A DNA stretch of 64,000 nucleotides, from the NCBI RefSeq assembly GCF_003688665.1, contig NZ_REFO01000010.1, forward strand, positions 124,001 to 188,000. Reading direction: 5' to 3'. Below, piece after piece: positions 233 through 64,000 of this stretch. The position numbers and the translations under genes are program-made. This DNA comes from Hydrogenothermus marinus. Its GTDB lineage: Bacteria > Aquificota > Aquificia > Aquificales > Hydrogenothermaceae. A model generated the notes under the pieces. That model had not been told where the DNA came from and searched no databases. It was given only the letters and a program-made list of their open reading frames with translations. Positions within the stretch are counted from its first letter, which is position 1. Each line of letters opens with the position of its first letter.

Positions 233-741
233 TAGGAATAATAATGGGTAGTGATTCAGATTTACCTGTAATGAAACAAGCTGCTGATATTTTAGAGCAA
301 TTAAATATTTCTTATGAAATGACGATCGTATCAGCTCATCGAACTCCTGAAAGAATGTATGATTATGCAAAAAATGCAGAAAAAAGAGGGATTAAAGTAA
401 TAATAGCAGGTGCAGGAGGAGCTGCTCATTTACCTGGTATGGTGGCATCTTTAACAACTATACCAGTAATAGGAGTACCTGTAAAAACATCTTCATTAAA
501 TGGTATAGATTCGCTTCTATCTATTGTACAGATGCCAGCGGGTATACCTGTTGCGACAGTTGCAATAAATAATGCAAAAAATGCAGGACTTCTAGCAGCA
601 TCTATAATTTCCACCTTTGATAAAGAAGTTGCAAATAGATTAAAAGAATATAGAAAAAATTTAAAAGAAATGGTCTTACAAAAAGCAGAAACATTAGAAA
701 ATATAGGTTACAAAGAGTATTTAAAGGAAATGAATATATGA
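229..741 (+). CDS. purE: N5-carboxyaminoimidazole ribonucleotide mutase
   Basis: This is a 170-residue class I PurE, the usual bacterial length. It converts N5-CAIR to CAIR in de novo purine synthesis and forms octamers in the cytoplasm. The N-terminal GSDSDLPVM motif (about residues 8-16) and SAHRTPERM (about 35-43, with the catalytic His) are the family signatures. [12 protein letters not shown] stretch follows and builds the nucleotide pocket. The start overlaps the purK stop by 4 nt, with GGAG in the purK coding end as the likely ribosome site. The stop overlaps the next gene's start in the same ATGA fashion, so all three genes are probably co-transcribed. Confidence 0.95.
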
Positions 742-2339: not shown

Positions 2340-2345
2340 AGAAAA

Positions 2346-3089: not shown

Positions 3090-3091
3090 GC

Positions 3092-3144
3092 TATAATAGT
3101 ATATGATAACTATATTTATTTATAAATATTATTGTTTTTGGAGG
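3092..3144 (+). promoter_or_regulatory. Probable -10 element and ribosome binding site for lysC
   Basis: A consensus TATAAT lies at 3092-3097, just after the preceding gene's stop. No convincing -35 is visible 16-18 bp upstream. GGAGG at 3140-3144 precedes the TTG start at 3152 and decides that start. The leader would be about 50 nt, too short for a lysine riboswitch, and none is seen. Confidence 0.4.
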
Positions 3145-3151
3145 ATATTAA

Positions 3152-4384
3152 TTGCCTTTAGTTGTTAAAAAGTTTGGTGGAACATCAGTTGGAAATTTAG
3201 ATAGAATAAGAAATGTTGCAAAAAAAGTAAAAAAAGCAGTAGAAAATGGTGAAAAGGTTGTTGTAGTTTCTTCTGCAATGTCTGGAGAAACAGATAAACT
3301 TCTTGAGTATTGTTATAGTTTATCAAAAAGGCCAAATCCAAGGGAAGTAGATCAGGTAGTATCAACTGGAGAGCAAGTAGCAATAGGACTTTTATCAATA
3401 GCACTTCAAGAGATGGGAATACCTGCAGTAAGCTTAACAGGGTGGCAAGTACCAATAGAAACAGATGATATTCATACAAAAGCAAGAATTAAACATATAA
3501 ATTCTAAAAGAATAAAAGAAGAATTAGATAAAGGAAAAGTTGTAATAGTTGCAGGTTTTCAAGGAATAGATAAAAATGGAGATATTACAACCCTTGGAAG
3601 AGGTGGATCAGATACTACTGCAGTAGCTTTAGCAGCAGCTTTAAAAGCTGATATTTGTGAGATATATACAGATGTTCCTGGAGTATTTACAGCAGATCCA
3701 AGAATTGTACCTGAAGCTAAGAAAATACCTATTATCTCTTACGAAGAGATGATGGAAATGGCTTCTCTTGGATCTAAAGTCATGCAGATAAGATCAGTAG
3801 AATTTGCAGCAAAATATAAAGTAAAAATACATGTAAGATCTTCTTTTAATGATGAAGAAGGTACATGGATTATGGAGGAAAATGAAGAAATGGAAAAAGT
3901 AGCAGTAAGAGGAATAAGTCATGATTTAAAAGAATCAAAAATAACTGTTGTTAAAGTTCCTGATAAACCGGGAATTGCAGCAAAACTATTTAAAACCTTA
4001 GGAGACAAAAATATAGTTGTAGATATGATTGTTCAAAATGTTTCTCATGAAGGTTATACAGATATTTCATTTACAGTTAATAAAACAGACGCAGATTATG
4101 CAGAAGATATAGCAAAGGAAGTAGCAAAAGAGGTCGGAGCAGCTGGTGTAGATAGAAATGATAAAATAGCAAAAATATCTGTTGTTGGTCTTGGTATGAA
4201 AACCCATGCAGGCACAGCAGGTAAAATGTTTGATGTTCTTCAAAAAGAAGGAATTAATATATATGCAATTTCTACTTCTGAAATAAAAATATCTTGCTTA
4301 ATAGATGAAAAATACGCAGAGCTTGCAGTAAGAGCTTTACATGAGGCATTTATAGAAGATAAAGATGTTATGGTTATAGATTAA
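3152..4384 (+). CDS. lysC: Aspartate kinase
   Basis: This 410-residue monofunctional aspartokinase phosphorylates L-aspartate, the entry step to lysine/diaminopimelate, threonine and methionine. KKFGGTSVG (residues 6-14) is the ATP/aspartate signature. [16 protein letters not shown] (about 148-163) and [15 protein letters not shown] (about 171-185) follow as in all LysC proteins. Residues from about 265 onward form two ACT domains (V-P-D-K-P-G-I-A), which in this family bind lysine and/or threonine for feedback inhibition. The start is a TTG with a strong GGAGG 7 nt upstream. Length and domain order are normal. Confidence 0.96.
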
Positions 4385-48307: not shown

Positions 48308-49219
48308 ATGACAGATAAATATGGTAAAAGTAGTTGGTATAAGAGAACTTGGACAGAAGCAGAAAACGAAGATTTTAAGCCAAAAGTAGTAAAAGAAGGT
48401 GTATTAATCGGCAGTCATGCCCTTGCAAAAGCACCGAAGATTTATGGTGTACCTACAGGAGTAGAAGGTTTAGATGATTTATTTTTCATAACAGAGATAG
48501 AAAATGGAAAACCTGTTAAAAAAAACTTAGGAGGAATACCTGCTTATTCTGTTTTTAATATTACAGGTGTAAATGATACAGGAAAGTCTTTAATGGTAGA
48601 ACAGTTTACTGTTAAACAAGCTCAAAGAGGTGAAAAAGTTATATTTGTTACTGTAGAAACTCCTGCAAATTTTGCTATATCATCTATACAGATGAGAGCT
48701 CAGGCTATGGGCTATGATTTTTCAAAAATAGAAGATAATATTATCTTAATAGATGCAGCATCTCATGTATCATTAAGGGAAAACATACCAAATTTAACAG
48801 CTACTATGGAATATGCAATAAAAGAGTATGGAGCAAAATTCGTAGTTATTGATTCTGTGACAGGGTTATTTGAAAATCTAGAGATGAAAGCAAGAGGTAT
48901 AGTAAGAAGACTATATAGTTTTATGAAAGAACATAAACAAACTGCCCTTTTTGTTTCTCAAAAAAGAAGTGGACATGAAGATTTAAGCTCAGAAGCAGCA
49001 GGTGGCTATGCAGTAGGACATATTGTTGATGGAACAATGGTTCTTGCAAAAGAGATTATTATGACAACTTATCAAGCTAAAATATATAAAAAACCTATTG
49101 GTGAAATTGTACGATTATTCCGTATAGATGGATGTCGTATGTCTGGACATGATACAAAAACTCATTATCTTGAAATAACAGAAACAGGTTTAGTAAGAAT
49201 ATTAGAACCATTAAGTTAA
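48308..49219 (+). CDS. Thermophile KaiC-domain RecA-like ATPase
   Basis: This 303-residue single-domain KaiC-like protein has Walker A GVNDTGKS (residues 87-94), a catalytic-type Glu in VETPANFA (about 117) and Walker B FVVIDSV (about 178-184). An N-terminal extension with VPTGVEGLDDLFF precedes the ATPase core. It matches my recollection of the thermo_KaiC_2 family (AF_0795-like), found across bacteria and archaea but only in thermophiles. The family is presumed regulatory and its target is unknown. GGAGAAGG precedes the ATG. The HTH partner follows after 20 nt. Confidence 0.82.
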   Translation: MTDKYGKSSWYKRTWTEAENEDFKPKVVKEGVLIGSHALAKAPKIYGVPTGVEGLDDLFFITEIENGKPVKKNLGGIPAYSVFNITGVNDTGKSLMVEQFTVKQAQRGEKVIFVTVETPANFAISSIQMRAQAMGYDFSKIEDNIILIDAASHVSLRENIPNLTATMEYAIKEYGAKFVVIDSVTGLFENLEMKARGIVRRLYSFMKEHKQTALFVSQKRSGHEDLSSEAAGGYAVGHIVDGTMVLAKEIIMTTYQAKIYKKPIGEIVRLFRIDGCRMSGHDTKTHYLEITETGLVRILEPLS

Positions 49220-49239
49220 AATAAAAAGGAGGGTTTGAT

Positions 49240-49896
49240 ATGGTTATAGAACTAAAACCACAAGTGGATGAAAGTGAGCTTGAATCTTTAGTAGCTCGTG
49301 TATTTTTTAAATCTATTGATTTATTAGGAGGTCTTACAAAGCTTGCAGAATATCGTACACTTACTTGGCTTCCATCTTTAGCTCGTGCTGCTTATGCAGT
49401 TGTTTTAAGTGATAAATACTTTTATACAGAAGAAGAAATTGCAGAAAAAGTGGGGCTTACTAAAAATACAGTTCGTAATATATTAAGGGCTGATCCAGAG
49501 CTTGCACTTTATAAAGTTCAACATATAGATGAGCTAACATCAGAAGAGAAAAAAGAGTTAAGAGTACACACTGCTGGAGGTATTGCTAAACTTGCTTACA
49601 GAATGATTAAAGAAGGCCAAGAAGCCCAAAGCTTATTACAGTTCTGTCAACAAATGACAGAGCAAGCAGTACAAGTAGTTTGTGAAGCTCCATGGCCTTA
49701 TTTAGTATTAAAACAACTTAGAGGTATAAAATATCCAATTACAAAACCTGAAGAAATAGCTGAAAAACTTAAAGGTATAAAAGCACAAGGTTTAGAAATC
49801 TCTGAAATTGTTGAGCATATAAATTATCCAATTAATACACCTGCATTGCTTTTACATGAAATCCATGAGTATTTACAAAAACAAGAATTAGTATAA
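49240..49896 (+). CDS. KaiC-associated HTH regulatory protein
   Basis: This 218-residue protein has a helix-turn-helix at about 63-85 (TEEEIAEKVGLTKNTVRNILRAD) and a long helical remainder (VHTAGGIAKLAYRMIKEGQEAQSLLQF, then IKYPITKPEEIAEKLKGIKAQGLEISEIVEHINYPINTP). A common 'near-KaiC' domain has been described for proteins encoded beside thermophile KaiC homologues, and this fits by position and pattern. It probably binds DNA under control of the ATPase. GGAGGG precedes the ATG and a terminator follows, so the pair is one operon. Confidence 0.72.
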   Translation: MVIELKPQVDESELESLVARVFFKSIDLLGGLTKLAEYRTLTWLPSLARAAYAVVLSDKYFYTEEEIAEKVGLTKNTVRNILRADPELALYKVQHIDELTSEEKKELRVHTAGGIAKLAYRMIKEGQEAQSLLQFCQQMTEQAVQVVCEAPWPYLVLKQLRGIKYPITKPEEIAEKLKGIKAQGLEISEIVEHINYPINTPALLLHEIHEYLQKQELV

Positions 49897-49983: not shown

Positions 49984-50440
49984 ATGAAATTTAATTACGG
50001 CAAAACCATTCTTCTTGGAATTATATTATTTACATTATTTACAATATCCTCATTTTTTTTTCTTACCTACTAAGTATAGTGTTTCTTTTGCAATAATGGA
50101 TATAGCCGTTATAGTTTTTGCATTTTTAGTTTGGCTTAATGATAAATATTATAATGAACAAATTAGTATTAGAGTTTTTTCCATAGCAGATAAAAAATTT
50201 ATAGAAGATGTTATTGTTAGACAGATGAATATGCATGGTATTTCTAATATTGTAAGAAAAGAGAACAAAATTGAGTTTTACAAAGGAAAAAATAAAGCAG
50301 GTGAAGTTAGATATAAATTAGATGAAAAAGGTAATCCACTTTACATTGATAAAAAATGGGTTATAGAAGTAGAAGCTCCTGAATATATTCTTCATAATAT
50401 AGATCATGAACTTTGGAGTTTAATAGGAACAAAACAGTAA
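49984..50440 (+). pseudogene. Two-helix membrane protein gene interrupted by a frameshift at a 9-T tract
   Basis: An ATG at 49984 with AGAGGA 5 nt upstream starts a membrane-type sequence (KTILLGIILFTLFTISS) that stops at 50071, just after nine T (50053-50061). Reading one T fewer joins it to a 130-residue open frame ending at 50440. The joined product is 151 residues with two transmembrane helices (about 8-27 and 32-50) and a soluble C-terminus (FIEDVIVRQMNMHGIS ... HELWSLIGTKQ). I do not recognise the family. The gene may be broken, rescued by slippage, phase-variable or a sequencing error. It stands directly upstream of the Pel operon. Confidence 0.6.
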
Positions 50441-50501
50441 ATATAACTAAAAAATTTTAACAATTATTCGATAATTTTAAAAAAGTATCAAATGTGATTT
50501 T

Positions 50502-50520
50502 TCATTATAAATGATATAAT
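50502..50520 (+). promoter_or_regulatory. Pel operon promoter with a TCATT-ATA-AATGA repeat against the -10
   Basis: A consensus TATAAT lies at 50515-50520. A perfect 5+3+5 inverted repeat at 50502-50514 abuts it, lying in the spacer where a bound protein would block polymerase. The -35 is weak (TGTGAT region). The pelC ATG is 69 nt further, after AAAGGAG. Operator function is an inference. Confidence 0.45.
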
Positions 50521-50588
50521 ATTAAATATAATAAATAATGTTAAATATAATTATGGTAAATAAAAATTTAGTTAAAAAAGGAGTTATT

Positions 50589-51065
50589 ATGAAAAAATCT
50601 TTTTTTACAATATTATTAATATTTTTTTCGTTTTATTTATTATCTTGTTCTTCAGTAAAAGAAAATATAAAAGTAGGGAAATTACCTAAAAAAGGAATTA
50701 TTGTTGTTTACCCTTTTGAAAACTTCTCTCAAACTCCTTATGCAGGTGTGAAAGCAGCTTCTTTAACAAAGGGGATTTTATTAAGTAAAGGTTTTAAAGT
50801 AGTAGATGGTTATATTTTTGATGGTGAAAATATAAAATTAAAAAGCATTAAAAATTTTGATTATAAATTAACTGGTAAAGTAATAGAATGGAGATATAAA
50901 ACAGGAATAGATGGTGAACCTGCAGTTAGTTTGTATATACAAATTAAAAATAAAAATGGACATTTAATATGGTCTGCTACTGGATCAAAATCACAATGGG
51001 GACATAAATCTGTATCTTTAACAGCTCAAGAATTAATAGATGAGCTTGTTAGTAAAAGTAAATGA
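50589..51065 (+). CDS. pelC: Pel polysaccharide outer-membrane lipoprotein PelC
   Basis: This 158-residue lipoprotein has the signal KKSFFTILLIFFSFYLLSC ending in a lipobox Cys (residue 19 or so). The mature part IIVVYPFENFSQTPYAGVKAASLTKGILLSKGFKVV matches the PelC pattern (P-F-x-N-x-S/T-x-T-P-x-A-G). In Pseudomonas PelC forms a 12-subunit ring at the outer membrane that guides the polymer to PelB. Length is close to the Pseudomonas protein (172). The ATG at 50589 has AAAGGAG 6 nt upstream; an in-frame ATG 51 nt earlier would bury the signal peptide. It overlaps pelD by 4 nt. Confidence 0.8.
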   Translation: MKKSFFTILLIFFSFYLLSCSSVKENIKVGKLPKKGIIVVYPFENFSQTPYAGVKAASLTKGILLSKGFKVVDGYIFDGENIKLKSIKNFDYKLTGKVIEWRYKTGIDGEPAVSLYIQIKNKNGHLIWSATGSKSQWGHKSVSLTAQELIDELVSKSK

Positions 51066-52327
51066 AAGAAAGTTTAAAATCAAATATAAAAATAAATTTT
51101 AAAAGTTTAAAAGATATTTCTGTTATTTTTGAAATAATTGTAATATTTGTTGTATCTTTTTCTATAGGATATATTTTAAATAATCAAGATCCTCTATTTA
51201 TAAAAACCTCTAATTTTAATTATTTTTATATACCTATTTTGGTTTTATCTTTATTTTATGGTATGGGTGCTGGATTATTGTTACTATTTTTACTTACTAT
51301 TTCTGGTTTTATTTATTTAAAAGAGTTTCCTGAATTTTTTTTCTTAAATGGTTTGATGCTTTCTTTAATTTCAGGAGAATTTTATTTTTATTGGCGAAAA
51401 AAAATAGAATCAATAGAGTCTAAAGCAACATATTTAGAGGAAAAATTAAGAGAAATAGGTATAGCTGCACATACAATCAGAATATCTCATGATATATTGG
51501 AAAAAAGCTATATATCAAAACCTTATACAATAAGAGCTGTTTTACATAAAATACAAAAAGAAGAAAATATAGAAAATTTTTTTAAATTCATATCAAATCA
51601 ATTTTTTGTAGAAAGTTTTGTCTATGTGGAGTATGATTCTGAAAAAGAAGAAATAAAAAATGTGTATCCTTTTAATTCAGATAAAAAAAAGATAGATTTA
51701 GAGCATCCTTTGATTCAAAAAATGTTATTTTTGCAAGAGATTGTATATATAAAAGATATGATAGATATAAAAAATATAGATTATATAGCTACCATTCCTA
51801 TATTTGATATTAATGAAAAATTAAAAGCATTTTTTTTAATAGAACATATACCATTTATCCATTATAATATTGAAAATCTACTTTCTATACAGCTTGTTTC
51901 TCAGTATTTTTTATTTAATATAGCTAAACAAAAAGAAATTGAAGCTATTAGTAAAGAGAATATATTACCTGAATATATTCCATCTGATTTTAAATATGAA
52001 ATATTTAAACTACGTAAATTAAAAAAAATTTCAGATGTAGATTCTTCTATTGTAATAATAGAAGTAAAAAGTAGTTATTCTTCAATAATAGATAACTTCT
52101 TAGGACAAAGCCTTAGAGCTTTAGATTTTTATACAAAAATAGAAAATAAAGAGAATAATATTTTTATAATTGTCCTTCCCTTAATTGCTAAGGAAGGAGG
52201 TATTGGATTTATAAATAGATTATATGAGCAATTTGATTTTTTAGACCATAAATATAAATATTTTGTTTTTAATATTAAAGATTTAAATAAAGTGAATGAA
52301 ATTTTAAATAATTTGGTAAAAGGATAA
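51062..52327 (+). CDS. pelD: Pel regulatory inner-membrane protein PelD (c-di-GMP receptor)
   Basis: This 421-residue protein has four transmembrane helices within about 20-112 and a helical stalk (about 112-135). A GAF domain (about 165-295) and a degenerate GGDEF domain (about 305-421) follow, the same layout as Pseudomonas PelD (455). The GGDEF-like part lacks GGDEF but keeps an inhibitory-site RxxD, Arg352-Ala-Leu-Asp355, which in PelD binds c-di-GMP and switches on synthesis by PelF. It starts within the pelC stop (ATGA) and pelE follows after 4 nt. Confidence 0.8.
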   Translation: MKESLKSNIKINFKSLKDISVIFEIIVIFVVSFSIGYILNNQDPLFIKTSNFNYFYIPILVLSLFYGMGAGLLLLFLLTISGFIYLKEFPEFFFLNGLMLSLISGEFYFYWRKKIESIESKATYLEEKLREIGIAAHTIRISHDILEKSYISKPYTIRAVLHKIQKEENIENFFKFISNQFFVESFVYVEYDSEKEEIKNVYPFNSDKKKIDLEHPLIQKMLFLQEIVYIKDMIDIKNIDYIATIPIFDINEKLKAFFLIEHIPFIHYNIENLLSIQLVSQYFLFNIAKQKEIEAISKENILPEYIPSDFKYEIFKLRKLKKISDVDSSIVIIEVKSSYSSIIDNFLGQSLRALDFYTKIENKENNIFIIVLPLIAKEGGIGFINRLYEQFDFLDHKYKYFVFNIKDLNKVNEILNNLVKG

Positions 52328-52331
52328 AATA

Positions 52332-53306
52332 TTGCAAAAAGAATACATATATTTTAGCATATTCTTTGAAATAGTTGGGATGGCAAATTTTTTGATATTT
52401 GATAATATATTTTCTATTTATGTTTATATAATTTTTCATTTAATAGCTAGTTTTTTTATTTCTTTAGTCTTAACTCCAATATTTGCTATTAAATTAAAAA
52501 AACAAAAAGTAAAAATAATAATATTACTAACTACTTTTATATTTATCACTTCAGTTATAGGAATTATTTTATCTATTATATATGTATTATTTTATAAAAC
52601 TTCAAAAAAGAAAAATCTAAATATAGATATATTAGAAACAGAAGATTTAGAAGAACATATTCCTATAATAAAACGAAGATTAGGAGAAGGCTCCTTACAA
52701 AACTTCAATAAAAATTTACCAGAACATATAAAGCTTAATATTCTATCTTTGCAAAAAAGATTAAAGTATCCAAATAAAGGTGTAATTTTAAAAGAAGCTT
52801 TTTCAGATAATAATGATGAAATTAGATTATTAGCTTTTAGTATCTTTTCAAAAGAAGAAGATAATATAAATAAAAATATATTTGAATTACAAAAGAAACT
52901 AGAAAATGTAAATTCTAAAGAAGAAAAAGCAGATATATATAAAAATATAGCTGTTTTATATTGGGAAAGTATATTCCTTGGTATTGTAGATGAAGAATTA
53001 AAAAATTACTATTTGGATTTGTCAAAAGAATATTTTTTAAAAGCTCTTAGCTTAAAACAAGATCCAGAAATAAAATTTTATCTTGGAAGAATCGCTTTAT
53101 TAGAAAAAGATTATAAGCTTGCAGAAGAATATTTAAGTAAAGCTTATGAATTAGGAAATAGAAAAGTTATCCCTTATCTAATGGAAATCTATTATGAAAA
53201 AAAGGATTTTAAGAAAATTTTTAATTTAGTTAAAAATATTGATTTATATTCTATACATCCAAATTTTTATTTTAATTACAAGGTATGGTCTGAAGATGAA
53301 ATCTAA
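52332..53306 (+). CDS. pelE: Pel inner-membrane TPR protein PelE
   Basis: This 324-residue protein has membrane helices at about 5-27, 30-52 and 60-88, a cytoplasmic helical region, and at least two clear TPR units (EYFLKALSLKQDPEIKFYLGRIALLEKDYKLAEEYLSKAYEL). PelE of Pseudomonas (329) has the same size and build and bridges PelD, PelF and PelG. The start appears to be the TTG at 52332, with AAGGA 7 nt upstream. Its last 11 nt overlap pelF. Sequence signatures of PelE are weak, so position carries much of the call. Confidence 0.72.
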   Translation: MQKEYIYFSIFFEIVGMANFLIFDNIFSIYVYIIFHLIASFFISLVLTPIFAIKLKKQKVKIIILLTTFIFITSVIGIILSIIYVLFYKTSKKKNLNIDILETEDLEEHIPIIKRRLGEGSLQNFNKNLPEHIKLNILSLQKRLKYPNKGVILKEAFSDNNDEIRLLAFSIFSKEEDNINKNIFELQKKLENVNSKEEKADIYKNIAVLYWESIFLGIVDEELKNYYLDLSKEYFLKALSLKQDPEIKFYLGRIALLEKDYKLAEEYLSKAYELGNRKVIPYLMEIYYEKKDFKKIFNLVKNIDLYSIHPNFYFNYKVWSEDEI

Positions 53307-54777
53307 TATAGATATACTGATAATTGGAGAAGGAACATATCCATATATAAGAGGAGGAGTTTCTTCTTGGATTCATCAATTAATATCAGGTCTTCCTGAG
53401 TTTAAATTTGGAGTTTTATTCATAGGAAGTAGAAGAGAAGATTATGGAGAAAAAAGATATAAATTCCCTGATAATTTAGTTTATTTTGATGAAATATATA
53501 TTTTTGATAAGGAAGAACTACCTATACCTAAAAGAAGAAAACTAAAAAAAGAATATTACCAACAAATAGAAACAGTTCATAAATCCTTTAATAAAGAAGG
53601 TAATAATTTAGATGCTATTAATAGACTGATTGAAAATATATCTTTAGAAGATTTTCTCTATTCAAATGTATCTTGGGAATTTATAGTTAATACTTACTTG
53701 GAAAAATATGAAAATGAATCATTTATTGATTACTTTTGGACAATTCGTAATATGCATATACCCCTGTGGGAAATATTTAAGGCTATAAATCGTATTCCAA
53801 GAATAAAGATTGTTCATTCTCCTTCAACTGGTTATGCAGGCTTTTTAGCAGGACTTCTTAAACTCAATAGAAATATCCCTTATATACTTACAGAGCACGG
53901 AATATATACAAGAGAAAGGAAAATTGATTTACTTACTTCAGATTGGTTTTCCACTAGAAGAAGATTCCTTAAAAGTATGGAAGAATCTTCAGGATTAGAA
54001 TTTGTATGGAATAAATTTTTTGAAAGTATAGGAAGATTTAGCTATTATACGGCAGATAAAATTTTATCATTATATGAAAAAGCTAGACAGATACAAATTG
54101 AATATGGAGCACCTAAAGAAAAGACAATGGTTATACCTAATGGTGTAAATATAGATAGATTAAAATCATGTTTAGAAAAAAGACCTTCAAAAAATCCAAA
54201 AGTAATAGGTTTAATAGGAAGAGTTGTTCCTATTAAAGATATAAAAACATTTATAAAAGCTATGAGAATTGTTGTAAATAAAATACCTGATGCTGAAGGA
54301 TGGGTTGTTGGTCCAACAGATGAAGATCCTGAATATTATGAAGAATGCAAAAATTTAGTAAAGGTTTTAGATTTAGAAAAAAATGTAAAATTTTTAGGCT
54401 TTCAGAATATATTAGATATTTTCCCAAAAATCTCTGTAAATACTCTTACTTCTATTAGTGAAGGAATGCCTCTTTCTATATTAGAAGGTTTTGCTGCAGG
54501 TGTTCCTGCAGTTACTACAGATGTAGGTTCTTGCTTTGATATTATATATGGTGGACTAAATGAAGAAGATAAAAAGTTAGGTAATGCTGGTTTTGTTTGT
54601 AAAGTTGCAGATGCTAAAGATTTAGCAAAACATTATATAAAACTTTTAGAAAATGAAGCCCTTTGGAAAAAATGTCAGCAGGTGGCTTTAGAAAGGGTTA
54701 ATAAGTTTTATACTCAAGAATTATTTTTTTCTAATTATAAAAAATTATATTACGAGGCTTTATCTTGGCAGGAATAG
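53296..54777 (+). CDS. pelF: Pel glycosyltransferase PelF
   Basis: This 493-residue GT4-family retaining glycosyltransferase polymerises the Pel chain from UDP-sugars at the inner face of the inner membrane. The PelF-specific N-terminus IGEGTYPYIRGGVSSWIHQLISGLPE is clear. VIGLIGRVVPIKDIKTFIKAM and SEGMPLSILEGFAAGVPAVTTDVGSC with the Ex7E pair (Glu389, Glu397) follow. Length agrees with Pseudomonas PelF (507). The ATG at 53296, inside pelE, was chosen because it begins the conserved N-terminus; its ribosome site is poor, suggesting coupled translation. Confidence 0.92.
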   Translation: MKSNIDILIIGEGTYPYIRGGVSSWIHQLISGLPEFKFGVLFIGSRREDYGEKRYKFPDNLVYFDEIYIFDKEELPIPKRRKLKKEYYQQIETVHKSFNKEGNNLDAINRLIENISLEDFLYSNVSWEFIVNTYLEKYENESFIDYFWTIRNMHIPLWEIFKAINRIPRIKIVHSPSTGYAGFLAGLLKLNRNIPYILTEHGIYTRERKIDLLTSDWFSTRRRFLKSMEESSGLEFVWNKFFESIGRFSYYTADKILSLYEKARQIQIEYGAPKEKTMVIPNGVNIDRLKSCLEKRPSKNPKVIGLIGRVVPIKDIKTFIKAMRIVVNKIPDAEGWVVGPTDEDPEYYEECKNLVKVLDLEKNVKFLGFQNILDIFPKISVNTLTSISEGMPLSILEGFAAGVPAVTTDVGSCFDIIYGGLNEEDKKLGNAGFVCKVADAKDLAKHYIKLLENEALWKKCQQVALERVNKFYTQELFFSNYKKLYYEALSWQE

Positions 54778-56141
54778 GTTTTGAATTAAGAAAAATACTA
54801 AAGAAAAATAAGATAAGTTCTTTATTTGAAGCTTATGGATATGCTGCTATCTTATCTGCAGGTGGATGGGTAATATCTATTCTGGCAATAATTTTAGTTG
54901 GACTTATCAATATATCAATATATGGAAATTCAGCTGATATTATAAAATTTCAGGTAAGTGTTACATATCTAATTTCTTTAAGCTTAATATTATCTGGCTT
55001 TCATCAGTTAGTTTTTACAAGATTTGTTGCAGATAGAATATATGAAGGTAAAGAGGAAGAAATTGTACCTAATTTTTTTGGTATTTTAACTCTAAATACT
55101 GCTTTGTCTTTATTATTTTCCATTATTTATATTTATTTATTTTTAAAAGATGTAAAAAATATATATTTTGTTACTACTTTTTTATTTAGTTTGATTTTAC
55201 TTTCTAATCTTTGGATAATAAATATTTTAGCTATAAGTGTAAAAAAATATAGATATGTTGTTTTGTCTTATTTTTTCTCATATCTATTAATCATAGTTTT
55301 TTCATATTTTATAGGTTATTTTGGATTAGCTTATTTGCTTATTTCTTTTTTCTTAGGAAATTTAATATTATTTATTTTATTGCTTTATTTAATTTTAAAA
55401 AATTATCAATTTTTTGAAGTTTTATCTTTTGATTTTATAAAAGCTTATAAACAATATTTTCCATTAGCATTAGCAGGTTTTTTCTTTAATCTTGGGATAT
55501 GGGCTGATGAATATATATTTTGGTATTCACCATTAACTGGTGAAGATATAATTGGAAAGATTAGATCATCTGTCGTTTATGATTTACCTTTGTTTTTAGC
55601 TTATTTATCAATTATTCCAGGTATGGCTGTTTTTTTCTTAAGATTAGAAGCAGATTTTGCTGAATATTATGAAAAATATTTCAAGGGTGTTGTAGAAGGA
55701 GCTACATTAGAAACCTTAGTTAGATTTAAAGAACAGATGATAGACATAGTTAGAATTTCAATAAAAGAAGCCATAGTTTTACAAGGTATATTCAATATTA
55801 TACTCTATATAACTGCACCTTTAATTTTTTCTATATTCAATTTACCTTCAGCTGCAATACCACTATTTTATATAGATATGATAGCCACGCAGCTTCAACT
55901 CTTAGTAATGAACATACTTGCTATTTTATTTTATTTAGATAGAAGATATGAAACATTGATTATTACAATAATAATGGCAGTATTTAACATTATTTTGCCA
56001 ATAATAACTATAATATTAGGTCCCTATTATTATGGATATGGAACAGCTTTAGCAATGTTAATTGCTTCTACTATTGGTTTAATTTATTTAGATAAAGTTA
56101 TGAGGAGATTAGAGTATGAAACTTTTATGCTACAAAGATAA
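54765..56141 (+). CDS. pelG: Pel inner-membrane transporter PelG
   Basis: This 458-residue multi-pass protein has about 12 helices. It begins MAGIGFELRKILKKN, the PelG N-terminal signature, and its length is almost identical to Pseudomonas PelG (456). It belongs to the MOP/Wzx-like exporters and carries the polymer across the inner membrane with PelD, PelE and PelF. The start is a TTG inside pelF (13-nt overlap). The stop overlaps pelA by 26 nt. Confidence 0.92.
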   Translation: MAGIGFELRKILKKNKISSLFEAYGYAAILSAGGWVISILAIILVGLINISIYGNSADIIKFQVSVTYLISLSLILSGFHQLVFTRFVADRIYEGKEEEIVPNFFGILTLNTALSLLFSIIYIYLFLKDVKNIYFVTTFLFSLILLSNLWIINILAISVKKYRYVVLSYFFSYLLIIVFSYFIGYFGLAYLLISFFLGNLILFILLLYLILKNYQFFEVLSFDFIKAYKQYFPLALAGFFFNLGIWADEYIFWYSPLTGEDIIGKIRSSVVYDLPLFLAYLSIIPGMAVFFLRLEADFAEYYEKYFKGVVEGATLETLVRFKEQMIDIVRISIKEAIVLQGIFNIILYITAPLIFSIFNLPSAAIPLFYIDMIATQLQLLVMNILAILFYLDRRYETLIITIIMAVFNIILPIITIILGPYYYGYGTALAMLIASTIGLIYLDKVMRRLEYETFMLQR

Positions 56142-58812
56142 ACTAGTTATATTATTTGCCTTAATTATAATGTCTGAAGCATTTAGTAAAAATTTAGCCT
56201 TTTATTATGATAAAGACGTACCAGAAGAACTATTAAAAGTTTATGATTATGTTGTAGTTAATGTAGAAGATATTTCTAAGAATGTATTAAAAAAATATAA
56301 TAAAAAATTAGTAGCTTATATAAGTATAGAGGAGGTTTCAGATAAAACAAAAGCTAAAAAAGAATGGATTTTAGGTAAAAACAAAAACTGGGATTCTTTA
56401 GTTACAGATATTAGAAATAAGGATTATAGAAAGTCCTTATTAAATAAAATAAAAAATTTTAGAAAAGAAGGAATAAATAGTTTCTTTTTTGATACATTAG
56501 ACTCTTATCAATTAGCTTTAAAAAAGAAAGATTGGAAAAGTTATGAAAATGCTTTGGCAAATTTTATAATTGAAGTAAAAAAGCAATTTCCGAATTCAAA
56601 AATTTTCTTAAATAGAGGATTTGAGGTGTTTGACAAAGTTTATCCATATATTAATGGTGTTGTTGCAGAATCTCTATTTAGGGGATATAACGGGAAAAAT
56701 TATTATGAAGTTTCAAAAGAAGATAGAAAATGGCTAATAAATAAATTAAATTACATAAAATCCAAAAATATTCCTGTTTATGTTATAGATTATGTCAAGC
56801 CAAATGAAAAAAATTTAGCAAGAAAATTAGCAGAAAAAATAGAAAAGTTAGGATTTATACCATATATTACAAACAAAGATTTATCAATTATAGGCCTATC
56901 TAATTTTGAGATATTTCCAAGAAAAGTTTTAGTTATTTATAAGACTAAGGATGATGTAGCATATTCTAATGCCCATAGATTAATTCAAATGCCATTAGAA
57001 TATTTAGGATATGTAGCTGATTTAAAAACTCCAAAAGAGGCAATGCAGTTAAAACATACAATAGATAGATATGCCGGAATGGTAGTATGGCTTGAAAATG
57101 ATATAGTTAAAAATTATGATAAATTTTATAATTGGATATTAAAAAGAATCAAAAATGGCAATAAAATTCTATTTTTAGGATATTTTGGATTTCCAGAAAC
57201 GCAAAGGTATCTAAAGCCTTTAGGTTTAACTGCTGAAAATAACAAAGCTGGCTTTTTCAGTAAAAACAAAGTTATCTTTCAAGATAAAATTGTAGGGTTT
57301 GAAGAAAAACCTCCTTTAAACATAACTCCAGATAGCTTAATAAAAACCAATAAAGGAAAGCCTCTATTAATATTAAAAAATAGTAAAAATCAAGAGTTTC
57401 ATCCTATTACTATAACACCATGGGGTGGATATGTTTTGGAACAATATTTGACTGTAGATGTTGGTGATATAATTAAATGGATACCAAATCCATTTGAATT
57501 ACTTAAAAGAAGTCTTAGACTAAAACCTTTCCCTGCACCAGATTTTACCACTGAAAATGGCATGAGAGTTTTATTTTCTCATATAGATGGAGATGGTTCA
57601 GTTTCTCTTTGTGAATTTTGCCCTACCAAAAAATTTGCAATGGAAGTAATAAGAGATGAAATACTGAAAAAATATAAAATTCCAATAGGAGTATCCTTTA
57701 TAGAAGCAGAAATTATGCCATATGGGGTTTATCCACAATACTCAAAAAAGGCTATAGAAGTGGCAAAATCTATTTATGCCCTTGATAATGTAGAACCGGC
57801 TTCACATACTTTTTCTCATCCATTTAAATGGATGGAAATTTCAAAGCTAAAAGATAAAAATGAAATTCCTGAAGGGTATAATTTAAAAATACCAAACTAT
57901 AAATTTAGCTTATATAGAGAGATAGTTGATTCTGTAAAAAATTTATCTAAACTTTGTCCTCCAAACAAAAAAGTAAATATTTTATATTGGTCAGGCGATT
58001 GCAATCCTCCAAAAAAAGCTTTAAAAATAGCTTATGAACATAATATATTAAATATTAATGGTGGTGATACATACATAACAAAAGACAGGCCTTTTTTGTC
58101 ATTAGTAGCTCCAGCCGGATTAAAAAGAGGAGAATATTATCAAATATATGACGGAGAACAAAATGAAGAGCTCTATACAGATGATTTTACCAAAAACTTT
58201 TGGGGATATAAAAAAGTAATAGAAACTTTCCAATTAACAGACAAACCAAGAAGATTGAAGCCAATTGATATTTATTATCACTTTTTTTCTGGAACAAAAC
58301 TTGCAAGTTTAAATGCATTAAAAGAAGTTTATAACTATGCTTTAAAACAAGATGTAATTCCTATGAAAGTTTCAGAATATATTCTGAAAGTTCTTGATTT
58401 TTACCATAGTGCTATTGCAAAAGAAGGAGATTATTGGATAATAAAGACAGATAAAAATTTAAGAACACTCAAAGTTCCAAAAGGCTTTGGATATCCTAAT
58501 TTAGAAACAAGTAAAGGTGTAATAGGTTTTTATCCATATAATGACCAACTTTATATAAGTTTAGATGGCTCTGGAAATTATAAAATAAAATTTACAGAAA
58601 ATAGACCAAATCAAACTTACATAAAACAGACAAATGCAAGAATAAAAAAGGTAAATAAAAATGAATTTAGTTTAAAAGGGTATCAACCTGTAAAGGTAAT
58701 ATTTAACAAATTACAAAATTGCAAGATATATACAAAAAATAAATATAAAAAAATTAAGAATATGCTAATCTTCAACACGGAAAAAGTGGAGTTTAAGCTT
58801 GAGTGCAACTAA
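56116..58812 (+). CDS. pelA: Pel hydrolase/deacetylase PelA
   Basis: This 898-residue periplasmic enzyme has a signal peptide (LVILFALIIMSEAFS). A GH114-type hydrolase domain (about 25-255) shows FFFDTLD (Asp126) and NRGFE (Glu170). A flavodoxin-like middle (about 265-440) and a CE-type deacetylase domain (about 480-740) follow, with SHIDGDGS (Asp491, Asp493) and PASHTFSHPF (His564, His568). A C-terminal beta domain ends it. All catalytic residues match Pseudomonas PelA (948). It deacetylates the polymer, making it cationic, and can trim it. GAGGAG precedes the ATG. In Pseudomonas pelA comes first; here it follows pelG. Confidence 0.92.
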   Translation: MKLLCYKDKLVILFALIIMSEAFSKNLAFYYDKDVPEELLKVYDYVVVNVEDISKNVLKKYNKKLVAYISIEEVSDKTKAKKEWILGKNKNWDSLVTDIRNKDYRKSLLNKIKNFRKEGINSFFFDTLDSYQLALKKKDWKSYENALANFIIEVKKQFPNSKIFLNRGFEVFDKVYPYINGVVAESLFRGYNGKNYYEVSKEDRKWLINKLNYIKSKNIPVYVIDYVKPNEKNLARKLAEKIEKLGFIPYITNKDLSIIGLSNFEIFPRKVLVIYKTKDDVAYSNAHRLIQMPLEYLGYVADLKTPKEAMQLKHTIDRYAGMVVWLENDIVKNYDKFYNWILKRIKNGNKILFLGYFGFPETQRYLKPLGLTAENNKAGFFSKNKVIFQDKIVGFEEKPPLNITPDSLIKTNKGKPLLILKNSKNQEFHPITITPWGGYVLEQYLTVDVGDIIKWIPNPFELLKRSLRLKPFPAPDFTTENGMRVLFSHIDGDGSVSLCEFCPTKKFAMEVIRDEILKKYKIPIGVSFIEAEIMPYGVYPQYSKKAIEVAKSIYALDNVEPASHTFSHPFKWMEISKLKDKNEIPEGYNLKIPNYKFSLYREIVDSVKNLSKLCPPNKKVNILYWSGDCNPPKKALKIAYEHNILNINGGDTYITKDRPFLSLVAPAGLKRGEYYQIYDGEQNEELYTDDFTKNFWGYKKVIETFQLTDKPRRLKPIDIYYHFFSGTKLASLNALKEVYNYALKQDVIPMKVSEYILKVLDFYHSAIAKEGDYWIIKTDKNLRTLKVPKGFGYPNLETSKGVIGFYPYNDQLYISLDGSGNYKIKFTENRPNQTYIKQTNARIKKVNKNEFSLKGYQPVKVIFNKLQNCKIYTKNKYKKIKNMLIFNTEKVEFKLECN

Positions 58813-59743
58813 GGAAATTTTAGAAAATAAAAAAGTAATATCTAAATATGAACTACTCGCTATTATTATTTTATTTATAACTATTCTTATAATACTTTTT
58901 CCAAAAGGAAAATTGGAAACAATGATAGATATGGAAACAAGTAATTATGAAGTTTCAATTAAATATTTAGAAAGTTTATCAAAAGCATACCCAAAACATG
59001 CTTTTTTTAAAATAGCTCTTTTACGATTTTATTTAAAAACTGGTAAACTAAAAAAAGCAGAAAATTTAATTGAAAATTGTCAAAAAAACAAACAATGTAT
59101 AGGAAATATTGGTTTTATTAAGAATAGTTATTTCGTTTATAAAAATCTATATTTTAAATCTAAAAATAAAAAATATTTAATAGAAGCGAAAAAATATTTA
59201 AGTTTAATTCTAAAGCTTAATCCTACAGAAACTAATTATGAATTTGTATTAAATGAAAGTAAATCTATGAATTTTGTAGATTTAAGCTATAAAACATTAA
59301 AAAAATTAGTAAAAATAAATCCTAAAAAAGAATACCTAAAAGATCTTCTAAATATAAGTCTATATTATAAAGATTATAAAGCTGCTTTAAATATCTTAGA
59401 TATACTTTACAAAAAAGAAAAAAATATAAAATATTTAGAAAAGAAAGCACAGATTTATGAATACTTAAAACATTCAGAAAAAGCAAAAGATATATATTTA
59501 ACTTTATTTAAAATTACAAAGAATGAAAATGTAAAAACAAAATACTTTTTGAAAGCAGTTTATATTCTTCTTTGGAATAAAAAATATAAAGAAGCTATAA
59601 ATATAGCAAAAAGATATGAAAATTATTTTTTAAAAACAAGAAATAGATTAGCTTTGAAAAAAATACTTGATATTTATCTTCAAACTGGAAATTTAAAATT
59701 AGCAAGAATTTTATCATTAAAAATATTAAAGGTAATAAATTAA
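58799..59743 (+). CDS. Membrane-anchored TPR protein, first part of a split PelB
   Basis: This 314-residue protein has one transmembrane helix (about 18-37, ELLAIIILFITILIILF) and then repeated TPR-like helices in a periplasmic orientation. In Pseudomonas, PelB (1,193 residues) starts with such an anchor followed by TPRs and a C-terminal porin. Here the anchor is a separate protein. The TTG start overlaps pelA by 14 nt, with GGAG 8 nt upstream. The sequence itself carries no PelB-specific motif that I can name; the assignment rests on order and build. Confidence 0.6.
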   Translation: MSATKEILENKKVISKYELLAIIILFITILIILFPKGKLETMIDMETSNYEVSIKYLESLSKAYPKHAFFKIALLRFYLKTGKLKKAENLIENCQKNKQCIGNIGFIKNSYFVYKNLYFKSKNKKYLIEAKKYLSLILKLNPTETNYEFVLNESKSMNFVDLSYKTLKKLVKINPKKEYLKDLLNISLYYKDYKAALNILDILYKKEKNIKYLEKKAQIYEYLKHSEKAKDIYLTLFKITKNENVKTKYFLKAVYILLWNKKYKEAINIAKRYENYFLKTRNRLALKKILDIYLQTGNLKLARILSLKILKVIN

Positions 59744-61333
59744 ATGAAAAGAATAATTGTTTCTTTAATTTTAATAGTATTGCTAATAAATCCTGTATTT
59801 AGTAAACAAAAATTTGATTTACAACTTTATGAGCTTATGTATAAAAGTTTTATCTATACGCAAGATTTAGAACATGCTTATATTGTTGCAAAAAAAGTAC
59901 TAAAAGTTATACCTTTTAGTATAAAATGGAGGAAAAGAGTTGCACAACTAGCTCTTTGGCTTGGAAAAACAGACGAAGCATATAAAAACTATCTTTATAT
60001 TTACAATAAAACTAAAGATCCTTCTATAGAAAAAATACTATTTACCTTTTCTTATCCTGAAATTATTAATCTGAAAATACAAAAATATGAAACACAGGTA
60101 AAAAAAGGAAATTATCAAAATGCTTTAGAACTTGCAAAATTGTATGAATATACTGGTTATCCAGAAAAATCTCTAAAGTTATTAAAGCAAATTTATGAAA
60201 AAACTAATAAAAAAGAGTATTTATATGAATACTTAATCTATGCAACTAAATTAGGTGAAACTCATATTTTAGTTAAATATATTCAAACTTTAAAAGTTTT
60301 CCCTTTAGAAAAAAAATATGACATAGTATATCTTTTAATAGCAAAAGGATATTATGATAAGGCACTGGAAGTATTAAGATATGTGCAAGATTTACCAAAA
60401 GATAAAACTTATTATAATTTACTGCTATTTTTACTTTTGAAAAATCAAAAATATAAAGAATTTATAAAAGTAGTTAAATATCTTTTAATAAAACAACAGA
60501 TTGATATTTCTTATATATATCCTCTTTTAGATTATTATTATAGGAAAAAGGATTTACAATCTTTAGAATTTATATACTCTAAAATCTATAAAATAAAAAA
60601 AACAAAAGCATTTATAAAAGAATATATAAATATACTTATAGAAAACAAAAAATTCCAACAAGCTTTAGAAATATTAAATGAAAACACGAGTATATTTAGT
60701 GATAAAGAATATCTGTTTTATTTAGCAAAAATTTATGCAGGACTAAAAAATAAAGAAAAAGTTGCCAAGATTTACAAAATTTTATTAAAAGATTATAGAG
60801 AACAACTTTCCCTAAATGAAAAGAAAGAGATTTTATGGTTTTTTATAGATAATTCTGAAGAATATTATAAGTTATTAAAAACATATCTACCTTTCTTTAA
60901 AAAAGAAAAAGATTTATATATAGAAGTTATTACTGCATATATGAATATCCAAGAATTAGATAAAGCTTATAGTTTAGCTAAAAAATATATAAATAAAGAG
61001 AAAAATAATTTATCCTTTTTAATATTATATGCAGATATATTAAACATACAAACAAAATTTGATGAAAGTTCTTATTATTACAATAAAGCATGGATTTTAG
61101 CTAATAAACAGCTAAGAATAAATCCAAATATAATAAACAATAAAGAATTTTTAAGGAATTATATTAGGCTTTCTTTCAAATATAGCTCACCTAAAAAAAT
61201 AAAAAAATTACTAAAAATTGCAAAAAATACCCTTAATTATAATGAATACTTAAACCTAATATTAGATTATTATCTATATTTAGGAGAATATGATCCATCC
61301 TTTTATATTTACAACTATAAGAGGATTTTCTAA
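59744..61333 (+). CDS. Exported TPR protein, second part of a split PelB
   Basis: This 529-residue protein has a signal peptide (KRIIVSLILIVLLINPVFS, cleavage before KQKF) and is otherwise helical TPR-like repeats (ELAKLYEYTGYPEKSLKLLKQIYEKTNK; KALEVLRYVQDLPKDK; FQQALEILNENTSIF). No membrane helix is seen, so it should be periplasmic. TPRs of PelB in Pseudomonas bind PelA and guide the polymer. The ATG follows the previous stop by one base and its own stop shares one base with the next ATG. The separate signal peptide shows this is not a recent frameshift of one long gene. Confidence 0.65.
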   Translation: MKRIIVSLILIVLLINPVFSKQKFDLQLYELMYKSFIYTQDLEHAYIVAKKVLKVIPFSIKWRKRVAQLALWLGKTDEAYKNYLYIYNKTKDPSIEKILFTFSYPEIINLKIQKYETQVKKGNYQNALELAKLYEYTGYPEKSLKLLKQIYEKTNKKEYLYEYLIYATKLGETHILVKYIQTLKVFPLEKKYDIVYLLIAKGYYDKALEVLRYVQDLPKDKTYYNLLLFLLLKNQKYKEFIKVVKYLLIKQQIDISYIYPLLDYYYRKKDLQSLEFIYSKIYKIKKTKAFIKEYINILIENKKFQQALEILNENTSIFSDKEYLFYLAKIYAGLKNKEKVAKIYKILLKDYREQLSLNEKKEILWFFIDNSEEYYKLLKTYLPFFKKEKDLYIEVITAYMNIQELDKAYSLAKKYINKEKNNLSFLILYADILNIQTKFDESSYYYNKAWILANKQLRINPNIINNKEFLRNYIRLSFKYSSPKKIKKLLKIAKNTLNYNEYLNLILDYYLYLGEYDPSFYIYNYKRIF

Positions 61334-63354
61334 TGTGGAAAAAATTATTATTAATAATTTTAATAACAGCTTTTAGTAGTTTTGCAGAAAGTTATATTAA
61401 TATATATAGTATTCAAGTAATAAGTACAAAAGATATTAAAGAAGCAAAAAATGTTTACAAAAAAATTTCTAAATATCCATATGCAAGAATTGAAAAGATT
61501 GGCTCTTACTATGTTGTTAGAGTTGGTAATACAAGGTTTACAAAAGAACTAAAACCTTTATTAAAAGAGATTAAAAAATACTATAAAGATTCTTTTATTA
61601 GGATAGCTGATATTATTCCTGAAAGAATTATATTAGCTAATTTTAAATTTAAAAAAGAAAAAGTTAAATCTATGATTAAAGAAAAAAAACCTGATAATCA
61701 AGAAAAAATAAAAACTAAAAAAGAAGAAAAATTAAAATTTGTTCAAAATGTAAATAGTAGTTTGGTAGAAAGTTATATTAATATATATAGTATTCAAGTA
61801 ATAAGTACAAAAGATATTAAAGAAGCAAAAAATGTTTACAAAAAAATTTCTAAATATCCATATGCAAGAATTGAAAAGATTGGCTCTTACTATGTTGTTA
61901 GAGTTGGTAATACAAGGTTTACAAAAGAACTAAAACCTTTATTAAAAGAGATTAAAAAATACTATAAAGATTCTTTTATTAGGATAGCTGATATTATTCC
62001 TGAAAGAATTATATTAGCTAATTTTAAATTTAAAAAAGAAAAAGTTAAATCTATGATTAAAGAAAAAAAACCTGATAATCAAGAAAAAATAAAAACTAAA
62101 AAAGAGGAAAAATTTAAAATAGTTAAAGATACAAAAGATATTTTGAGTTTGATTCCAGATATAAATATTAAAAATAAAACAGTAAAAATAGAAAAAACAG
62201 AAAAACAGAAAATAAAAATACAACAAGATAAAGTACTAAATATAGAAATTAATGAAATAGATAAAGATGGAATAAACAAAACATTAAAAAAATACAAAGA
62301 TACCTTACCTTATAGAGATAAAGTTTATGCAGAAGATATTGTTGGAAGAGTAAATGAAGCATTAAATACTTCTTATAGAAACTTAAAAAGAAGTAAGGAA
62401 GATTACCTTGCATATAAACAATTTGTAGATTTATATACAAAATATTCAAACAGATTTAAATCTCATATTAATTATGAATATTTTGAAGATGTTTCAAGAT
62501 TTTATCTTAAATATCAATTAAAAAAATATCTTTGGCTAAATAGTTATCTTTATATAGATAATGAAAATTATTTCACAAATTCTTATAAAAAAAGTAATTA
62601 TAAAAAATTGCCAAGTATTGATAGTTTATTAACAATAGGAATAAAAAAAATATTTAATTCTTCAGATATAATCATAAAGTTAGGAGCAAGAAAATCTGTA
62701 GAATTATTTCCTATTTTATCTATAGATTATAATTTCAAAACTAATAAATACTGGGATTCTACTTTATCCTTAGGAATAAATCAAAGAGCAGAAGAAAGTA
62801 ATCTTTCTTTTTATGGAGCATCTAAAACTAATTTAAAATACAGTACAACAATATCAATAAACTCAAAAAATGTTATATCTGGTAGTACTTCAATTAATAA
62901 TTATTATTCTCAAGATTTTAAAGAAATAGGTAATGGTTATTACTTTGAATCAAGATACTTACATAAATATAGAATAGGATATCCAGATTTTTCTAATTAT
63001 ATTCAGCTATCAGGAGGTTTTTATAATGAAAAATCAAATAAAACAGGTTCTATCAATAAAATTTTAATAACACCAAATACACAAGTTTTACCTGATAATT
63101 TTATAGAAGCATGTATAGGTTCTTTGTTTGGAATTAATTATATTGATAGTTATAAAAAACAATTAAGACCTTTTGTGGACACAAATATTTGCTACAATAC
63201 TGCTTATAACATCGGATATTCACTATTTTCTGGATTGGCTGGTGAAATGTTTGATAATGATAACTTATCTTTTGGAGTTTATATAGGTAAAGGATTTTTT
63301 GCAAATCCTTACACAATTTTTAGATTACAAATTTATTACACAAGATGGTTCTAA
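61333..63354 (+). CDS. pelB: PelB-like outer-membrane porin with two N-terminal SPOR domains
   Basis: This 673-residue protein has a signal peptide (LLLIILITAFSSFA) and two SPOR domains at about 19-100 and 146-227, each followed by a K/E linker (YSIQVIST, YARIEKIGSYYVVRVG). A bridging segment with LPYRDKVYAEDIVGRVNEAL (about 322-341) follows, then a beta-barrel of alternating strands to the end (IYYTRWF, an aromatic C-terminus as outer-membrane proteins have). The bridge and barrel resemble the C-terminal porin of PelB. SPOR domains bind glycan strands lacking stem peptides. The two SPOR-linker units are identical in DNA. The stop overlaps tsaD. Confidence 0.75.
   Translation: MWKKLLLIILITAFSSFAESYINIYSIQVISTKDIKEAKNVYKKISKYPYARIEKIGSYYVVRVGNTRFTKELKPLLKEIKKYYKDSFIRIADIIPERIILANFKFKKEKVKSMIKEKKPDNQEKIKTKKEEKLKFVQNVNSSLVESYINIYSIQVISTKDIKEAKNVYKKISKYPYARIEKIGSYYVVRVGNTRFTKELKPLLKEIKKYYKDSFIRIADIIPERIILANFKFKKEKVKSMIKEKKPDNQEKIKTKKEEKFKIVKDTKDILSLIPDINIKNKTVKIEKTEKQKIKIQQDKVLNIEINEIDKDGINKTLKKYKDTLPYRDKVYAEDIVGRVNEALNTSYRNLKRSKEDYLAYKQFVDLYTKYSNRFKSHINYEYFEDVSRFYLKYQLKKYLWLNSYLYIDNENYFTNSYKKSNYKKLPSIDSLLTIGIKKIFNSSDIIIKLGARKSVELFPILSIDYNFKTNKYWDSTLSLGINQRAEESNLSFYGASKTNLKYSTTISINSKNVISGSTSINNYYSQDFKEIGNGYYFESRYLHKYRIGYPDFSNYIQLSGGFYNEKSNKTGSINKILITPNTQVLPDNFIEACIGSLFGINYIDSYKKQLRPFVDTNICYNTAYNIGYSLFSGLAGEMFDNDNLSFGVYIGKGFFANPYTIFRLQIYYTRWF
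61386..62105 (+). repeat. Perfect 339-bp tandem duplication, period 381 bp, covering the SPOR domain
   Basis: 61386-61724 and 61767-62105 appear identical base for base, with an offset of 381 bp (127 codons, in frame). Between and after the copies the sequence diverges. Identity including third codon positions means a very recent event, gene conversion, or an assembly artefact. Confidence 0.9.
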
Positions 63355-64000
63355 ATCAATTCTACAAATTTATCCATTCTAATCCTTGCATAAGGTTTAA
63401 AGTCATAACTTACAAACTTACCTTTTTTAGCTCTTAAATATCCAGTATAAGCTACCATTGCTGCATTATCAGTACAGAGATATAAAGGTGGAAAATAAAC
63501 TTTTATACCTTCTTTTTTTGCTTCTTCAGTTAGCTTTTCTCTTAATCTTTTATTGGCAGAAACTCCACCGGCAACAACTATATTTTTAATATTAAACTCT
63601 GCAGCTGCATTTAAAGTTTTTTTTACTAAAACCTCTACAACTGCTTCTTGGAAACTTTTGGCTATATCTTCAGGTTTATATTTTTGTTTTTCTACTTCTT
63701 TCAATACTGCAGTTTTTAATCCACTAAAAGAAAAATTATATTTATGTTGTGGTTTTCCTTTTAATAAAGGTCTTGGAAGTTCTAAAGAGCAGATACCTTT
63801 TTCTGATAACTTGTCTATTATTGGTCCCCCTGGATATCCTAAATTAAGCATTCTTGCAACTTTATCATAAGCTTCACCAACTGCATCATCTATTGTTCCA
63901 CCAAGATATTTATAATCTTCAAAATTATTTATAATATAAAGCTCTGTATGTCCACCAGAAACAACTAAAGCTAAAAAAGGAAAATCTATTTTTTCTTCTA
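63351..64000 (-). CDS. tsaD: tRNA N6-threonylcarbamoyladenosine synthase subunit TsaD (partial)
   Basis: The frame runs off the window edge at 64000; about 216 residues from the C-terminal part are present. LVVSGGHTELYII, GGTIDDAVGEAYDKVARMLNLGYPGGP, FSFSGLKTAVL, and VVAGGVSANKRLRE are the TsaD/Kae1 signatures with metal and ATP contacts; the N-terminal His motif is outside. TsaD makes the t6A37 modification in ANN-decoding tRNAs with TsaB, TsaC and TsaE. It converges on the pelB-like gene and their stops overlap by 4 nt. Confidence 0.94.
   Translation of the reverse strand, partial: EEKIDFPFLALVVSGGHTELYIINNFEDYKYLGGTIDDAVGEAYDKVARMLNLGYPGGPIIDKLSEKGICSLELPRPLLKGKPQHKYNFSFSGLKTAVLKEVEKQKYKPEDIAKSFQEAVVEVLVKKTLNAAAEFNIKNIVVAGGVSANKRLREKLTEEAKKEGIKVYFPPLYLCTDNAAMVAYTGYLRAKKGKFVSYDFKPYARIRMDKFVELI

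Follow-up and report, generated by a model that had tools for sequence, protein, structure and literature searches.

The pel operon and its products

The window analysed here is a stretch of 64,000 nucleotides from Hydrogenothermus marinus, and its positions 50589-63354 hold a complete pel operon, which has the order C-D-E-F-G-A-B and in which PelB is split over three open reading frames (ORFs). We consider it very probable that this locus is a functional-looking Pel exopolysaccharide operon that was horizontally acquired en bloc; this judgement leaves aside the docking of the exporter on peptidoglycan, which is weighed separately below. Ten successive plus-strand ORFs, from 50015 to 63354, were scanned against Pfam and NCBIfam, and PelF (NF038011), PelG (PF16933), PelD (PF16963) and the PelB barrel (PF24604) scored above the curated cut-offs. 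Adjoining pel genes overlap by at most 26 base pairs (bp) or are separated by at most 4 bp.

50589..51065, plus strand: pelC, outer-membrane lipoprotein with lipobox L-x-S-C, periplasmic ring/funnel
51062..52327, plus strand: pelD, inner-membrane receptor of cyclic diguanylate (c-di-GMP), with transmembrane, GAF-like and degenerate GGDEF parts
52332..53306, plus strand: pelE, N-terminal membrane segments and TPR
53299..54777, plus strand: pelF, glycosyltransferase family 4 (GT4) enzyme (synthase); its ATG at 53299 overlaps pelE, and there is an earlier TTG at 53239
54765..56141, plus strand: pelG, polytopic inner-membrane exporter
56116..58812, plus strand: pelA, periplasmic glycoside hydrolase and CE21-type de-N-acetylase
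58799..59743, plus strand: pelB1, inner-membrane-anchored N-terminal TPR part (TPR match)
59744..61333, plus strand: pelB2, secreted periplasmic TPR part with a signal-peptide-like start (TPR_15, 2.9e-15)
61333..63354, plus strand: pelB3, signal-peptide-like start, two SPOR domains, the last TPR/stalk helices and a 16-strand barrel

Profile and structure comparisons identified most of the products. A search of Pfam and NCBIfam with the single PelC sequence gave no significant match, and a profile of 14 relatives was needed; this profile matched solved PelC (5t0z, 3.5e-34; 9h80 chain C, 2.3e-32), and the core RYKTGIDGEPAV is conserved. The start of pelC is the ATG at 50589, which is preceded by an AAGGAG-like site, and another in-frame ATG lies further upstream at 50538. 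PelD matched PelD_GGDEF (4.2e-7) and solved PelD 4euv (0.0025). Its I-site residues R352xxD355 and R386 are invariant across 13 aligned sequences, and the matching residues of Bacillus cereus PelD are required for c-di-GMP binding (PMC7112168). PelF, in which the motif EGMPL..E is conserved, matched the equivalog model at 3.5e-185 with 616.7 bits (cut-off 100), and PelG matched its family over the whole length (7.9e-122). PelA aligned with solved PelA 9cgy over residues 26-819, nearly the entire length (5.4e-134). With the catalytic residues of Pseudomonas aeruginosa PelA (PaPelA) as reference (PMC12022489), the hydrolase pair is kept as D126 and E185 (PaPelA D160/E218) and the deacetylase set as D491, D493, H564, H568 and H722 (PaPelA D528, D530, H600, H604 and H761). 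PelE was assigned by its position, its hydrophobic N-terminal half, its C-terminal TPR (profile matches) and its conservation in 13 loci; no family model matched it in the single-sequence search of Pfam and NCBIfam, and the profile search gave TPR only. The evidence for the identity of PelE is weak, and this counts against the favoured reading of the locus.

PelC, PelD, PelF, PelG, PelA and both PelB regions are backed by profile, solved-structure or fold matches. An earlier note, made from the sequence alone, had proposed a complete Pel-type operon in the order C-D-E-F-G-A-B in an Aquificota host. The matches bear out the operon, including PelC, PelD and PelA, all three of which the note had named as decisive; the ORF coordinates confirm the order; and the host indeed belongs to an Aquificota family, one that includes Sulfurihydrogenibium yellowstonense SS-5. 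Like P. aeruginosa pelABCDEFG, the window encodes all seven functions, that of PelE being a putative assignment, with the PelA active sites, the PelD I-site, the PelC ring protein, and TPR and a 16-strand barrel in PelB. Unlike it, the window has the order C-D-E-F-G-A-B and three PelB polypeptides, and its barrel part bears a pair of SPOR domains. B. cereus pelDEADAFG (PMC7112168) shares the PelD/E/F/G core, a deacetylase and RxxD-dependent c-di-GMP control, but this single-membrane cell has neither PelB nor PelC.

PelB in three parts and the modules on its outer piece

The three parts of PelB correspond to successive regions of the unsplit protein. On unsplit PelB proteins, the B1 profile covers residues ~10-350, and the B1, B2 and barrel profiles match consecutive parts of unsplit PelBs of 1184-1252 residues, showing that they are colinear. 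A family profile of the PelB2 region matched solved PelB (9h80 chain M) at 4e-32 and covers residues 284-743 of P. aeruginosa PelB (PaPelB), a region that takes in the PelA-binding segment 332-436 (PMC12141448). In pelB3, SPOR (9.6e-15) and the PelB_C barrel (2.7e-24) were matched. In an AlphaFold2 (AF2) model, B3 is made up of two SPOR-like folds, loose linkers, a helix run and 16 strands; residues 296-673 of this model superpose on PaPelB 803-1191 of 9h80 chain M (Z 30.7, 3.0 A, 371 residues). The second cut thus lies between PaPelB residue ~743, where the B2 match ends, and residue 803, where the B3 match starts. Because of these two limits, B3 retains the part that is seated in the PelC ring; a barrel without the stalk and TPR fails to hold PelC (PMC12141448).

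For comparison, 80 named loci were found by PelF; they are the best 80 of 463 relatives and are biased to near kin. Fifty-six loci had one barrel ORF, and pelB was unsplit in 15 of these, in two parts in 38 and in three parts in 3. The three-part loci come from two Deferribacterales and one Campylobacterales (L080), and the window is the fourth. The window resembles the two-part pelB operons of the Aquificota Sulfurihydrogenibium and Persephonella (PMC7112194 Fig. 5(iii), PMC12141448) in gene order and in a pelB that is divided between an anchored TPR portion and an outer portion. It differs from them by the extra cut, which separates the TPR from the barrel, and by proteins that are closer to those of Deferribacterales. 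The Deferribacterales pel operons (L049 and G050/L151) have the same order and the same three pelB ORFs; they differ in that the SPOR-like region of their barrel part is single and degenerate. We rejected sequencing errors as the cause of the breaks in pelB, because G050, an essentially closed Deferribacterales genome of 2.4 Mb, has pelB broken into the same three ORFs on a contig of 2.36 Mb. In L049 (18040-19287), the barrel ORF has 415 residues against 497 in the closely related G050 operon, probably because a frameshift has cut it short. A three-part PelB as in Deferribacterales is newly described here; the earlier note had correctly seen PelB as parts and had missed the three-way split.

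From the colinearity of their sequences, B1, B2 and B3 would be expected to assemble end to end. The exporter would then consist of three polypeptides: the anchored TPR part B1, the free periplasmic TPR part B2 with the PelA-binding region, and the barrel B3 seated in the PelC ring.

The SPOR domains of B3 were also overlooked by the earlier note. Both copies are above the cut-off of PF05036 (SPOR), and their topology in the AF2 model is beta-alpha-beta-beta-alpha-beta. They arose by one in-frame duplication:

61374..62120, plus strand: tandem duplication of a 381-bp SPOR unit in pelB3 (Tandem Repeats Finder, 2.0 copies, 98%)

The first 338 bp of the unit are identical, so the duplication is very recent. 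SPOR modules are also present on other PelB outer pieces. L028, a two-part exporter from the host's family, has one Pfam SPOR, and a Deferribacterales outer piece (L152, 14533-17739) has two N-terminal AMIN domains where others have SPOR. With a profile built here, SPOR-like modules were detected on the outer pieces of 12 more two-part exporters, most of which had served as its seeds; a second profile, built from three different seeds, recovers only some of them. L091 has such a module too, on a truncated ORF. In the AF2 model of one such outer piece (mean predicted local distance difference test score 78), the elements follow one another as in SPOR, and the SPOR structures of CwlC, RlpA, DamX and DedD rank among the model's best matches, at modest scores (Z 5.2-6.7). 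In all, SPOR-like or AMIN modules were found on ~16 of 42 detached PelB outer pieces versus none of 15 unsplit PelBs (Fisher p 0.005, with lineages that are not independent). We describe here, as new, a duplicated SPOR on the barrel part and recurrent modules on detached pieces; in the library of papers that was searched, no report linking SPOR domains to PelB was found. The same SPOR-like module was also seen on separate proteins near Campylobacterota pel operons (L125, 1422-3116; L071, 3644-5305); the L125 protein combines the module with a barrel of the phosphate-selective porin O/P family (Pfam, 6.7e-38).

SPOR domains of other proteins bind denuded glycan (PMC6895207). The SPOR domains on B3 would dock the exporter on peptidoglycan, replacing the covalent inner-membrane tether lost by fission, and the recurrence of the modules suggests that such docking may stand in for the tether. 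In its fuller form, this proposal would have the outer half repeatedly re-anchored to the wall by SPOR or AMIN after PelB fission, with Pel exported at denuded glycan, e.g., the septum. We regard this form as rather unlikely. Several observations speak against docking in general. No wall-binding module was recognised on about 26 of the 42 detached outer pieces, which can therefore do without one. In the three-part exporters of Deferribacterales, the SPOR-like region, single and degenerate, is missed by Pfam. The SPOR-like calls in Campylobacterota are mostly below the Pfam cut-off and come from a profile partly built from them; Pfam confirmed no SPOR on most Campylobacterota outer pieces, where the support is the built profile and one AF2 model. 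Furthermore, the three PelB parts may perhaps be the result of plain neutral fission. The alternative that the SPOR repeats are a neutral fusion without a role in Pel export, and the three-part PelB a neutral gene fission, has a chance only a little below even. The very recent duplication and the majority of outer pieces without a module fit it; it would not lead one to expect SPOR-like or AMIN modules in one and the same position across several lineages and on no unsplit PelB.

The polymer, the gene order and the origin of the operon

In the proposed pathway, PelF would polymerise uridine diphosphate N-acetylgalactosamine (UDP-GalNAc) in the cytoplasm, and PelD, PelE and PelG would form a c-di-GMP-gated inner-membrane complex that passes the chain outward. 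PelA would then partially deacetylate and trim the chain, and PelB with the PelC ring would export the polymer. The genome encodes a galE-type epimerase (471.8 bits versus a cut-off of 262.3) and GGDEF proteins (10 of 11 places above the cut-off). The product predicted from these genes is Pel. We consider it unlikely that the locus, with the same architecture, encodes a Pel-like synthase-dependent system for a different polymer, of another N-acetylhexosamine composition or linkage. The matches of PelF, at 48-64% identity, are all from loci that are themselves uncharacterised, and PMC7112194 cautions that the product of divergent pel operons may not be the same; against this, PelA keeps both its hydrolase and its deacetylase residues in an alignment of ~800 residues with solved PelA, and the PelF score lies far above the equivalog cut-off.

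The gene order is not special to this locus. Among the 80 loci, C-D-E-F-G-A-B is common to Aquificota, Campylobacterota, Deferribacterota and some others, and A-B-C-D-E-F-G was seen only in five gamma- and betaproteobacterial loci (L115, L118, L121, L122 and L128), of which L128 has no pelC match. Local rearrangement was found in L050, L062, L111 and L124. Since C-D-E-F-G-A-B is widespread among the sampled loci, "reordered" is true relative to Pseudomonas only, and the suggestion of the earlier note that the A and B functions had moved to the end is not supported as a special event of this locus, as this order dominates outside gamma- and betaproteobacteria. An order peculiar to Aquificales was likewise dropped after the 80 loci had been examined. 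Within the host's family, PelA matches were found in 18 of 41 genomes and in 9 of 10 genera. The gene-order comparison that the note had proposed gave C-D-E-F-G-A-B in all readable clusters save one fragment (L038 of genome G032), in which a pelC follows pelB. Because the same order is present in essentially every family genome with a readable cluster, chance assembly is excluded. G032 has several pelA-bearing contigs (L037, L038, and L039 at 583-4341), one with an unsplit pelB of 1252 residues, suggesting at least two pel loci in this one genome. Pel in such organisms, which the note had presented as an extension of its ecology, was already published: Sulfurihydrogenibium azorense PelB (SULAZ_0918) and Persephonella marina PelB (PERMA_1356) are named in PMC12141448, and PMC7112194 describes, for "aquatic thermophilic species", a fission of pelB accompanied by rearrangement.

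What the note had overlooked is the horizontal acquisition of the operon. When PelF, PelG and PelA were concatenated for a tree (75 rows, 1870 columns), the window joined the Deferribacteraceae genome L049 at 100 support and 60% identity. Approximately unbiased (AU) tests reject trees in which the window is made to join six rows of its family (p 1.6e-62) or the nearest family row, L025 (p 1.2e-9). All nine Pel proteins have their best match in L049, and the 35-65% protein identity of the Deferribacterales operons to the window is the highest found. PelG is present in one of six genomes of the genus, the pel operon being absent from five congeners, and it is sparse in Deferribacterales as well (3 of 46 genomes). 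The entire operon sits between two neighbouring ORFs:

50015..50440, plus strand: left neighbour at the insertion site, function not assigned; 86% and 73% identical to tsaD-adjoining orthologues of two congeners
63351..63998, minus strand: right neighbour at the insertion site, tsaD (C-terminal part within the window), from the ORF and congener comparison

The right neighbour is presumably tsaD, a name given from features of that protein family. In two congeners (G004 and G005), this site is empty: the orthologue of the left neighbour runs towards tsaD, the two genes share 10-20 bp at their ends, and no operon separates them. The G+C content is 23.1% in the operon versus 28.3% on its left. Horizontal acquisition is strongly supported because tree placement, AU rejections, best matches, absence in congeners, empty sites and G+C content all point to it. 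Two points weigh on the other side: the tree came from a quick search on sequences of uneven amino-acid composition, and it shows kinship rather than the donor or the direction of transfer. Vertical inheritance in the family with loss in five congeners, the likeness to Deferribacterales being convergence or a tree artefact, is very unlikely: Pel is common enough in the family that losses must have happened somewhere, but the well-supported placement with Deferribacteraceae, the AU rejection of a family grouping, the clean empty site in two congeners and a three-part pelB shared with Deferribacterales and, in the loci sampled, otherwise found in one Campylobacterales only all oppose it. Beside the insertion, a KaiC/RecA-like ATPase and its partner ORF (48308-49896) lie between a LolA-like gene and ORF 50015; in congeners G001, G003 and G004 this pair is located elsewhere, still adjacent, which indicates a second rearrangement.

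With horizontal acquisition as the preferred reading, the chromosome of an Aquificota lineage received a whole biofilm operon at a single defined site. The three-part operon is a natural experiment on the passage of Pel through the periplasm: if PelB works in three pieces, a continuous covalent bridge between the membranes is not needed. The recurring wall-binding modules suggest how bridge-less exporters may stay positioned, and, in the rather unlikely fuller form with Pel export at the septum, daughter cells would be glued into filaments or streamers.

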